DNA from: Daucus carota subsp. sativus
Taxonomy: Eukaryota; Streptophyta; Magnoliopsida; Apiales; Apiaceae
Length of the DNA: 64,000 nt
Direction: 5' to 3'
Assembly (NCBI RefSeq): GCF_001625215.2
Contig: NC_030383.2
Location: 52,386,380-52,450,379 of the forward strand
This document shows, piece after piece, positions 10,701 to 15,734 of the stretch. The translations under genes were made by a program, and so were the position numbers. The notes beneath the pieces are model-generated. The model did no database searches, had not been told where the DNA came from, and saw nothing but the letters and a program-made list of their open reading frames with translations. The stretch's first letter is position 1, and each line of letters starts with the position of its first letter.

Positions 10701-13700
10701 TTATACTTATTGCAAATGATTTTTCTATTATTCTGAGTAGTATAAATTTCTTGTCATACAAATAGCCTGTCCACAACAAATCATTCTCGCAAGTCACTAT
10801 CTATTCTCAACTTATTAACCATAGACAATCGTCCGTACCAAGATGCTTTAACTTATACTTAACTTTTGACAAGACACTAACCCTTCTTACACCAATAACT
10901 AAAATTAAATATTCCCACCAATATTCCATCGTGACTTGTAAATTGCCTAAACACTAAAATTCCTATCTCATCTTACCAATAATTGATTCGTTATTGGGAA
11001 TCAGTTATACACTTTGATTAGTTGTATTTCCCCTTGCCGAATTTCATTTTTCAATTTTGTCTACCACCCAATATCTCCTCCGTAATTAAATAATTTAAAT
11101 ATTGTCAATTGTGTTTTCAAATATTGTTGTTTGAATAGTTCTTTTATTAAAAAATTTTGAAGCATTTATTGAGAAAAAGATTTACAAATGACAAACCACT
11201 TTCTGGTGGTTGATTTATTGTGATAGTATGGAAAAGGGTAGGTTTTGCAGCTATATGAAACGAAAATTCCTATACTAAGGTGTCCTCGCTTACCTGGCTT
11301 ATTAGCATTTGAATTGGATTTGCTTTCTATTGAAACCGAATAATTTTGTAATTGGAACGTATGCATAAGAGGCCGAGACGCCGGTCCAGCGAAATAGGCC
11401 AATGTGTGCCCGGAATTCCTCAAATTTGGTGACATGCTTCTTACATGATCCGGTGCTATCTCGCGACTGATGATCGGCTATAGCACAACGTTAATAATTC
11501 CAATTATATACAAAGATATTTATAAAAAAAAGGTTTACAAGAAGAATTATGAAATTTTTTATGAAACTATTTATAAGTAAATGCCTTTTCTTTGCAGCAT
11601 TAAGTTATATTGATAAGTTGAATTTTTGCTAATTCTTTCGGCAATGATAGTTTTATTTCAAGAACAAGGTTAGCCATGCATTATTATTATATTATTGCTG
11701 AGCATGCTTTGCTCATTCTTGCTTTCTTATGTTCATTCTTTCAGTGAAAATTGGAGATGGTTCGTCTTCGTCACACCGCGCGTACGTGTGTTCCGGTGCA
11801 TCATCCTATAATATTTAGGTTTCATCACCTGACCAGGTGGGGTTTTGGTATAGATAGCTTCGAGTGAAATAGTAAATAGTTTGTAATAAAATATGCTTAG
11901 AGTGTAAAATTTACCTAGACATTGGCTTAATTTCTCGTCGAAGTTATCCTGATGATATCAGGTGTGATGTAATAATTTTGTTTAGTTCTTGTTTCACACT
12001 ATAACCTGTTTGGATCTCGGTTTGAGGGGTCGTTTGCATGCTTTTATTTATTTACAGGTTATTTACTTTCGTGGCACCAAATTCCTGACCCCTGGATTTT
12101 GGGCTATCACAAGTTGGTATCAGAGCTACAGGTTATCAGTAACTGAAACAAGAATAGTTAGGATCGTTTAAGATAAGATCACTTGTTCAGACTCATGTAG
12201 AGTTTGACTCGAGGCTATTCGATATAGTCTTGATTAATGAGATAGGGTAGCTTTAGTTTATTACGTCAAGTATTTTGACGATATATATATATATATATAT
12301 AATAATTCTTGCAGCATCCTAAGTTTGATACGGAGTCAGAGGGACAAGGGTCACGTAAACCACAGAGAGATGTAGTTGCGCGTCCAACAACCGGGAGTAG
12401 CTACAAGTCTGACCCTTTGGAGGATAGCGAGCCAGTGAGGGCTCCAGCCCTAGTAGTTCCAGAAGTGCCACCCGTGGGTCCCCCAGCACGTGCTAGAGTT
12501 TCTTCCGCCACGTCGGCGACATCACCTACTCCGAGTGGGAGCAGACCAGTGGGTGCCCTTCCGTCAGCTTGTAGAGCTGTGGCAGACATGCGAGTTTATG
12601 CGAGGGCAAAACCAGGAGCTCCGAGTCTTGGTTCAGTCTTTTTCTGAAAGAGTTGTTTTGGGAGTTCAGGTTCCAGCTGTGGGCGGGTGCCCAACTAGGG
12701 ATACGGCTATAGAGGTGAGGACCATTCTTGCTTTAGCCGAGAGGTGGTTGAGGGTCCTTCCTTCTTCGAGTAGTGGGGTCCGCGATCCAGAGGGAGTGGA
12801 GCGTGTAATGCGCTATGTTTCAGGCAGGCTCCACGAGGTTGGTAATTCGAGGGATGAGTGATGTGATTAGAAGAGCTTGCTGTACATATGGAGTGTAGCG
12901 TGTATAAGATGCATACTATAGATAGTCAATTTACAAGTCATGATGAATGTTAGTAGGAATGTCGTTCAACATCTATACTATGCATAAAGTATGCATATGG
13001 AGTGGAGTGTACGATGTTCCTACGAACATTCATCGTGACTTGTAAATTGACTATCTATAGTATGCATCTAATACACGCTACACTCCATATGTACAACAAG
13101 CTCCTCCAACCACATCACTCATCCCTCGGATTACCAACCTCGTGGAGCCTGCCTAAAACATAGCGCATCATGCGCTCCACTCCCTCTGGGTCGCGAACCC
13201 CTCTACTCGAAGAAGAAATGATTCTCAACCATCTCTTGGCTAAAGCAAGAATGGTCCCCACCTCTCTAGCCGTATCCCTAGCATTGCGCCCGCCCACAGC
13301 AGGAGCCTGAACTCCCGAACCAACTATCTCAGAAAAACACTGAACCAAGACTCGGCGCTCCTGGTTCTGCCCTTGCATAAACTCGCATGTCTGCCTCAGC
13401 TCTACAAACTGGCGGAAGGGCACCCACTAGTCTGCTCGCACAGGAGTAGGTGATGTTGCCGACGTGGCGGAAAAAACTCTAGAACGTGCTGGGGCTGGTG
13501 GCACCTCTGGAACTACTGGGGTTGGAGCCCTCACTGGCTCGCTATCCTCCGAAGTGTCGAACTCGTAGCTGCTCCTGGTTGCTGAAGCCGCAATTACATC
13601 TCTCTGGGGTTTACGTGACCCCAATCCCTTTGACTCCGTATCAGACTCAGAATGCTGCAAGAATTATTATATATTTATCGTCAAAATACTTGACGTAATA

Positions 13701-15734
13701 AACTAAAGCTACCCTATCTCATTAATCAAGACTATATCCGGTAGCCTCGAGTCAAACTCCACATGAGTTTGAACAAGTGATATTATCCTAACTATTCTTG
13801 TTTCAGTGGTTGATAACCTGTAGCTCTGATACCAACTTGTGACAGCTCAAAATCTAGGGGTCAGGAATTTGGTGCCACGAAAGTAAAATAACCTGTAAAT
13901 AAATAAAAGCATGCAAACGACCCCTCAAACCGAGATCCAAACAGGTTATAGTGTGAAACAAGAACTAAACAAAATTATTACATCACACCTGAAGTCATTA
14001 TGATAACTTCGACGAGGAGTTATGCCAATGAGGTAAATTTTACACTTTAATCATATTTTATTACAAACTATTTACTATTTCACTTGAAGCTATCTATACC
14101 AAACACCCACCTGGTCTGGTAGATGAAACCTAAATATTATAGGATGATGCACGGGAACATACTTACGCGCGGTGTGACGAAGACGAGCCATCTTCAGTTT
14201 TCACTGAAAGAATGAACCTAGGAGAGCAAGAATGAGCAAAGCATGCTCAACAATAATATAACAACAGGGTCACGCTAAAGAGAGAACCAATGCTTAAAAT
14301 AGAACCACTAAGGTTCTGCTGGAAGACCCTATTTTTACATAGATTTTCATAATTTAAATTTAAATACATGTTTTTTTGCATCGTTGTGTGTATTCAAAAC
14401 TAATTTCAAAATATAATACATAAATAAGACATTTTTTTTCATGTGCAGTTCCACTGCAGAACCCTGACCACCCGCTTTCTCTGTACTAAAACAGAAACAG
14501 TTGATGTCATCCAAACTTTGTGTCAACCTCTCATTAAATGGTTGATATCAACAATCTTATGTGTCAATTCCTCACTAAATCTCAACTTTTAAAATAATTT
14601 CTTTATCTTCCTCCACTAATTCTTTCTTATCATCAATTCTCATACTTCACTAATTCTCTCTCTTCTATTTCTCGTTATTATCTCTCAATATTATCTGCAA
14701 ATGTTAATTTATTTCATATTATTTAATGACCATTAATTTTAAATTTTTTAGTATTTATTACAATACTTCCTATTTTTCATATCACTTGACTTTGGGATCA
14801 TATATTTAAATATTGGGTTAATGCTTTATTTCATCACTCTACTCGACTAAAACTTTCAGTTGGCCTACCGAGTCAAAAAAGTTTTCAGTCAACTAATTGT
14901 ACTATTAAAAACTTTCAAATAGGCCACTCCGTCAGTCTCCGTTAAGTTTCTAATGGGTTAATGTTCTATTTCATCACTGTACTCAATCAAAACTTTCACT
15001 TGGCCTACCGAGTACATGACAACTATACAAGCAATCTGGAAATAGATGTTTTTTCTTATAAGCTCGCCAACATCTGCAGTGTAGTTCATCTCATCAGTAC
15101 ATATCAGGTGATAACTTGCGTAGTACACAACCTTCTTGAACCAAATTACCCACTGAATCCAGGGTAAGCACATGTCGAATAAGTTTTGCTCTATCACAAA
15201 CCGTGCAACCCATGAAACCTAACCATCTTAAGGCAAGATCAACATAAGCATCCTTGATATAAACCATTAAAACATCACTAGCACTTACATAAGTATAAGT
15301 ACTGGGTCCCGGTCTTAGACCAGCACACTACATTGAATTATACAGCTTCATGGCAAAATCTATTTGGCCAGTAGCAGCATGCATTTCCAAGAGACAAGAA
15401 TAGGTAGATGGAGTGGGCAGATTAACGAAACAAACATGGTTGCAGATGGCCTGAGCCCAAACCCTTGCATTTCCATAGGGCTATTTAACGAACCGAGCTG
15501 TTCGCGAACAAGCTCGAGCTCGGCTCGTTAAGAGCTCGTTCGGCTCGGCTCGTTAAGTTAACGAGCTCGAGCTCGAACACAAAAAATTGTTCGTTAAGTA
15601 AACGAGCTCGAGCCGAGCTTTTAGTATGTTCGGCTCGAGCTCGCTCGGCTCGAGCTCGACTCGTTAAAGCTCGAAAAAATGTAATATTTTTGGTTTTTTT
15701 TATAATTTATATATGTTATTGAATTCAGAATTCA

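Follow-up and report, generated by a model that had tools for sequence, protein, structure and literature searches.

The large intron of a predicted carrot gene carries a palindrome in which two copies of one retrotransposon 5′ end face each other across a short spacer. As a whole, the best explanation is a decayed fold-back fragment of a long terminal repeat (LTR) retrotransposon with consequences for hairpin RNA and small interfering RNA (siRNA), to which about an even chance is given. The palindrome has an unusual origin signature and is built like a known silencing locus of another transposon class, its own silencing function being putative. Newly observed here are the missing target-site duplication, arm tips that match the host intron, and a spacer with both an inverted and a direct copy of arm sequence. 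The window below is the whole stretch of 64,000 nucleotides that was analysed, and the features discussed are listed in Table 1.

Structure of the palindrome

A repeat search of the window placed the inverted arms at 11684-12968 and 13008-14264, within two bases of the palindrome in the initial annotation (11682-14266). That annotation had also put a loop of about 45 bp between the arms; a spacer is indeed there, at a shorter length of 39 nt, ungapped. In a gapped alignment of 11684-12986 with 14264-12990, which includes part of the spacer, 1160 of 1267 ungapped columns are identical (91.6%), leaving 107 substitutions (8.4%, in keeping with the earlier estimate of roughly one base in ten) plus 13 gaps that take up 44 gap columns. 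Moreover, when the segment was compared with its reverse complement by blastn, the match had E = 0 and 88.4% identity over 2615 columns, far above chance. The palindrome in this intron is real.

From the outside inward, each arm consists of an LTR of about 430 bp, three bases, a primer-binding site (PBS), a leader, a decayed gag-like open reading frame (ORF) and a non-coding tail of about 105 bp; this order, present in both arms, bears out the proposal of two facing retrotransposon 5′ ends. The LTR end and PBS lie at 12105-12126 in the left arm and are mirrored at 13823-13848 in the right: the LTR closes with TATCACA (left) or TGTGACAG (right, reverse), followed in both arms by three bases and then TGGTATCAGAGC, which we take to match initiator tRNA-Met. 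The outer LTR start reads TGTTG in the right arm and TATTA at the same place in the left, and is set by the edge of homology only, there being no second LTR or relative to serve as an independent check. The sequence shows TG...CA ends and a nearby tRNA-matched PBS, with the start taken from the homology edge.

Table 1. Positions of the host gene, the palindrome and its parts in the window
Feature	Position	Strand	Basis or remark
Host gene exons 1-6	7800-7975, 8059-8143, 8255-8296, 8650-8818, 9109-9161, 9302-9526	+	In-frame joining with exons 7-8
Intron carrying the palindrome (8732 bp)	9527-18258	+	Donor CAG/gtaatg, acceptor tgcag/GTG, phase kept
Intron stretch matching arm tips	10909-10949	+	blastn and null test
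Left 5′ LTR	11682-12111	+	Arm alignment and landmarks; TATA-like motif in 11805-11819
Left primer-binding site, TGGTATCAGAGC	12115-12126	+	Sequence landmark
Left gag-like remnant, split over two frames	12306-12861	+	ORFs 12306-12647, 12457-12861
Left arm non-coding tail	12862-12968	+	Alignment, blastn; host-like stretch 12923-12960
Spacer	12969-13007		Inverted copy of 12909-12923, then direct copy of 12885-12898
Right arm tail	13008-13114	-	blastn; host-like stretch 13014-13053
Right gag-like remnant, stop-broken	13115-13663	-	ORFs 13115-13426, 13427-13663
Right primer-binding site, TGGTATCAGAGC reversed	13823-13834	-	Sequence landmark
Right 5′ LTR	13838-14266	-	Arm alignment and landmarks; TATA-like motif in 14129-14143
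Host gene exons 7 (18259-18305) and 8 (19561-19615, with stop)	18259-19615	+	In-frame model

The gag-like ORF retains 103 codons that can be aligned between the arms. Searches of Pfam and NCBIfam with its pieces (left 12460-12861 and 12550-12858, with 12306-12459 outside the query, and the right remnant) gave no match above the curated cutoffs. In a viral contig collection, the search for relatives of the right-arm gag-like protein yielded 19 pattern stretches, none of them confirmed, and two PBS patterns plus one tip pattern had no exact match. A blastn search of the palindrome found no other LTR copy in the 64-kb window, and hence no second LTR in direct orientation, only the mirror LTRs; the palindrome is a fragment, not a whole element. 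A miniature inverted-repeat (MITE) or foldback DNA transposon was rejected, as there is no exact target-site duplication and the arms have the LTR-PBS order instead.

Host gene and surroundings

The host gene model rests on splice signals and an open frame. Its eight exons join into 852 nt with a single open frame of 283 aa, which stays open across the 8732-bp intron, in agreement with the 8.7-kb intron annotated initially. Splice sites are GT/AG, except for one GC donor after 8818 (a predicted GC-AG intron at 8819-9108). The predicted 283-aa protein has no Pfam match and presumably resembles a plant protein of unknown function. Because only two short exons lie downstream of the large intron, transcripts ending early within it would lose 33 residues and gain five intron-encoded ones. 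Neighbouring genes encode a DUF617 protein, a cyclophilin-type isomerase and a proteasome alpha subunit, which fit a plant; DUF617 is not known outside plants.

The same intron holds a second insertion (14805-16633) with inverted ends GGGTTAATGC..., flanked by a 10-bp direct repeat TTTAAATATT (14805-14814 and 16624-16633), features that we take to be those of Mutator-like elements. Its inside may hold a captured gene piece and has one weak, below-cutoff Pfam match. Elsewhere in the window, inverted pairs of 87-90% identity over 69-77 bp lie about 2 kb apart at 30838-33105, possibly marking another inverted-end element, and a diverged repeat array with a spacing of about 115-165 bp occupies 40031-40917. 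A 263-bp direct repeat, 84% identical, is found at 25857-26119 and 36918-37180. Rfam at gathering scores reported one tRNA only, a tRNA-Ile (AAT) gene on the minus strand at 26220-26294. Broken frames on the minus strand at 26859-28679 read by eye, in our judgement, like pieces of a Copia-type polyprotein; 27536-28141 within them has no Pfam match.

Divergence between the arms

Transitions outnumber transversions between the arms by 72 to 35, and in the gag-like part dN (0.109) does not differ significantly from dS (0.150; P value=0.40). The arms therefore seem to have decayed neutrally, and their differences resemble neither sequencing error nor the outcome of protein constraint. Selection on gag before the arms were joined was considered and is unsupported by the same dN and dS values.

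Transitions at CHG cytosines (22 of 103) are more frequent than at CHH cytosines (39 of about 387; P value=0.004, one of several uncorrected exploratory tests), a hint of the pattern that past CHG methylation would leave. CG sites exhibit no excess (11 of about 90; P value=0.57), and without it the pattern is unlike simple methylation decay. Furthermore, the longest substitution-free tract spans 136 ungapped columns, with a one-base gap inside, and exceeds the expectation of uniform decay (P value=0.0002, exploratory); dispersion of substitutions in 50-column bins is not significant (P value=0.19). The tract may reflect arm-to-arm gene conversion, or constraint older than the joining. Of the 72 transitions, 45 are wobble-compatible on the plus-strand transcript (P value=0.044), a sign of strand-biased mutation or of pairing that is too weak to use.

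From a K2P distance of 0.090 an age of 3.5 to 6.5 My was obtained, a range that depends on the substitution rates assumed and on the arms having been identical at birth. The fragment is probably old, and the suggestion that the structure has survived for long stands on the proviso that the arms started out identical.

Ends, tips and spacer

Target-site duplications were sought as exact repeats of 4-10 nt over 26 × 25 boundary pairs, inexact repeats falling outside the scan; only two 4-nt matches were found, both in the AT-rich homologous ends. Erosion could account for the missing duplication. The outer 500-bp flanks share no similarity in either orientation (scores 22 and 22, against a shuffled mean of 24.2). 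Since the arms stop at the same inner point and the outer flanks have nothing in common, the inverted unit holds no detectable host flank.

The inner arm tips match a stretch of the same intron located upstream of the palindrome, with identity at 35 of 41 columns for the right arm and 33 of 39 for the left. The right-arm tip scores 50 against this stretch, compared with a median of 27 and a maximum of 36 for 60 Markov-resampled arms. The stretch could have served as a template, or it could be a fragment of an unrelated repeat. Between the tips, the spacer contains an inverted copy of nearby arm sequence (14 of 15 positions; P value=0.0005) and then a direct copy (13 of 14; P value=0.002), each assessed with 2000 shuffles and tested post hoc; at its apex, from 12979, TATGCATA flanks AAG on both sides. 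The spacer could also have formed when an originally perfect centre was repaired at a later time.

Origin of the palindrome

In the favoured account, one 5′ end (LTR, PBS, leader and the start of gag) would have entered the long host intron together with its mirror image in a single event. The most probable starting point is an unfinished cDNA that folded back on itself, or changed template, close to its incomplete end. End joining at a break, instead of the usual integrase reaction, would then have placed the folded cDNA in the intron, and short stretches of neighbouring DNA would have been copied in on the way. This order of events is one that we infer. Fold-back synthesis followed by end joining is favoured over autointegration because of the absent target-site duplication, the host-like tips and the spacer copies of the arm. 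Autointegration is known to give circles or inversions, not a duplicated arm. Of the two routes put forward in the initial annotation, a palindromic cDNA is thus possible and close to the favoured account; autointegration was rejected as the main route, as by itself it duplicates no arm and no exact target-site duplication was seen.

Comparable events are described in the available part of a study of yeast, in which inverted insertions at breaks arise via microhomology (median 6 bp) and non-homologous end joining (NHEJ), and inversions also form within transformed single-stranded DNA at 8-nt inverted microhomology (PMC11724301). The likeness lies in inverted copies made by microhomology and end joining, with extrachromosomal single-stranded DNA among the templates; the difference lies in size, as in that portion of the study local inversions are mostly 5-34 bp and distant ones have medians of 50-150 bp (PMC11724301), whereas the carrot arms are about 1.26 kb.

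An inverted duplication made in the genome after ordinary insertion, in which a truncated element folded back at a break or a stalled fork and was thereby duplicated, is an unlikely alternative for the origin. The host-like tip and the patchy spacer fit fold-back repair of chromosomal DNA, and fold-back inversions at breaks are known from the same portion of the yeast work (PMC11724301). However, the symmetry stops at a TG resembling an LTR start and the flanks are dissimilar, an argument weakened in that the LTR start is not independently fixed. Folding back within the chromosome should have carried flanking sequence along, and for this reason an unfinished cDNA is preferred as the molecule that folded.

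Two family members inserted independently and in opposite directions, each having lost its 3′ part, would let the substitution-free tract represent constraint in separate elements; this history is improbable, as both arms end at the same inner point, tail included, there is no target-site duplication, and the gag-like part is without protein constraint. The palindrome might also belong to a family of mobile palindromes whose termini are two U3 ends, and both outer ends do resemble LTR starts, but the lack of a target-site duplication and of a second copy in the 64-kb window makes this equally improbable. Finally, palindromes are a known class of assembly and sequencing artefact, and the initial annotation had named an assembly fold-back as a reading that would undo its claim; with 107 substitutions in a 2:1 transition bias and only 13 gaps, which is a pattern of mutation, such an origin is very improbable.

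Hairpin capacity and silencing

The palindrome has a predicted folding energy of −2138.5 kcal mol−1 on the plus strand, with 1189 pairs across the centre, and −2084.8 kcal mol−1 on the minus strand, in line with the proposal that the host transcript could form a hairpin; three stretches of the same length from the window, their base composition unmatched to the palindrome, gave −540.3, −623.2 and −561.4 kcal mol−1. The locus thus combines two copies of one element end in inverted duplication with the capacity for a long hairpin. Perfect pairing extends over 179 of 1280 24-nt windows, or 330 when G-U pairs are allowed on the plus-strand transcript. As 1080 of the 1262 left-arm 24-mers are absent from the right arm, small RNAs of the two arms would be mostly distinguishable.

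With the LTRs on the outside, both promoters, if alive, would be directed inward across the two arms, so that hairpin RNA could have sources other than the host gene and would not require host read-through. By the folding model, transcripts from the host gene or from either LTR would form a hairpin about 1.2 kb long, and RNA hairpins of this sort can set off gene silencing. Its most likely fate would be cleavage by Dicer-like enzymes, yielding 21-24-nt siRNAs that target the parent family in its LTR, leader and gag; the intronic locus would also be prone to methylation. That the promoters are live, that the locus is transcribed, and that it yields siRNAs and silences the parent family are steps that we infer by analogy.

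The closest analogue is Mu killer of maize, whose architecture, as given in the available part of its description, is strikingly similar in another class of transposon (PMC3440606). There too, one element end has supplied both outer ends, the first gene is present as two partial copies that abut as an inverted duplication, and promoters in the ends would read inward; a hairpin RNA of about 4 kb, made via read-through from a flanking gene, is the hypothesized siRNA source (PMC3440606). On the same partial account, Mu killer consists of DNA transposon (MuDR) sequence next to a flanking gene, and its silencing has been observed genetically (PMC3440606), whereas the carrot palindrome is an LTR retrotransposon 5′ end in an intron, has a host-like tip and is known from sequence alone. 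Furthermore, in the portion of that report available, silencing failed in Mu killer plants that had sense read-through transcripts, and the silenced plants had short antisense transcripts (PMC3440606). Read-through alone may therefore not suffice, which counts against a simple model of host read-through.

An inert relic, spliced out with the intron or kept in heterochromatin, which yields hardly any siRNA and leaves the gene unaffected, is a serious possibility, somewhat short of even; it concerns function only, is compatible with the same origin and overlaps in its odds with the other readings. It agrees with the predicted ORF being open across the intron, the neutral-looking divergence and the small share of perfectly paired 24-nt windows; on the other side stand the very strong predicted hairpin and the CHG-biased transitions that hint at past methylation. 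For Arabidopsis, the available part of a study of intragenic elements indicates that intronic elements can influence how their host gene is transcribed, through the heterochromatic silencing marks that they carry (PMC4417168). The carrot case is alike in that the element sits inside an intron (here of a predicted gene), and unlike in that elements in general are treated in that part, palindromes not being named (PMC4417168). Among the listed open-licence literature matches, as judged from titles and the beginnings of abstracts, none concerned a palindromic LTR 5′ end of such kind.

In the most far-reaching form of the favoured account, which is tentative and rather doubtful, a retrotransposition intermediate that had aborted was trapped on the spot as a fold-back with a host-intron tip and became in one step a self-promoted siRNA hairpin locus against its own family. 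If true, a retrotransposon would have generated its own silencer, and Mu killer would have a parallel among retroelements. How plants first recognize a new retrotransposon family might be explained, according to one proposal, by loci that directly produce double-stranded RNA of that family. For DNA transposons Mu killer is a known example; a folded-back LTR fragment built on the same plan would show how failed transposition could make the trigger in a second class.
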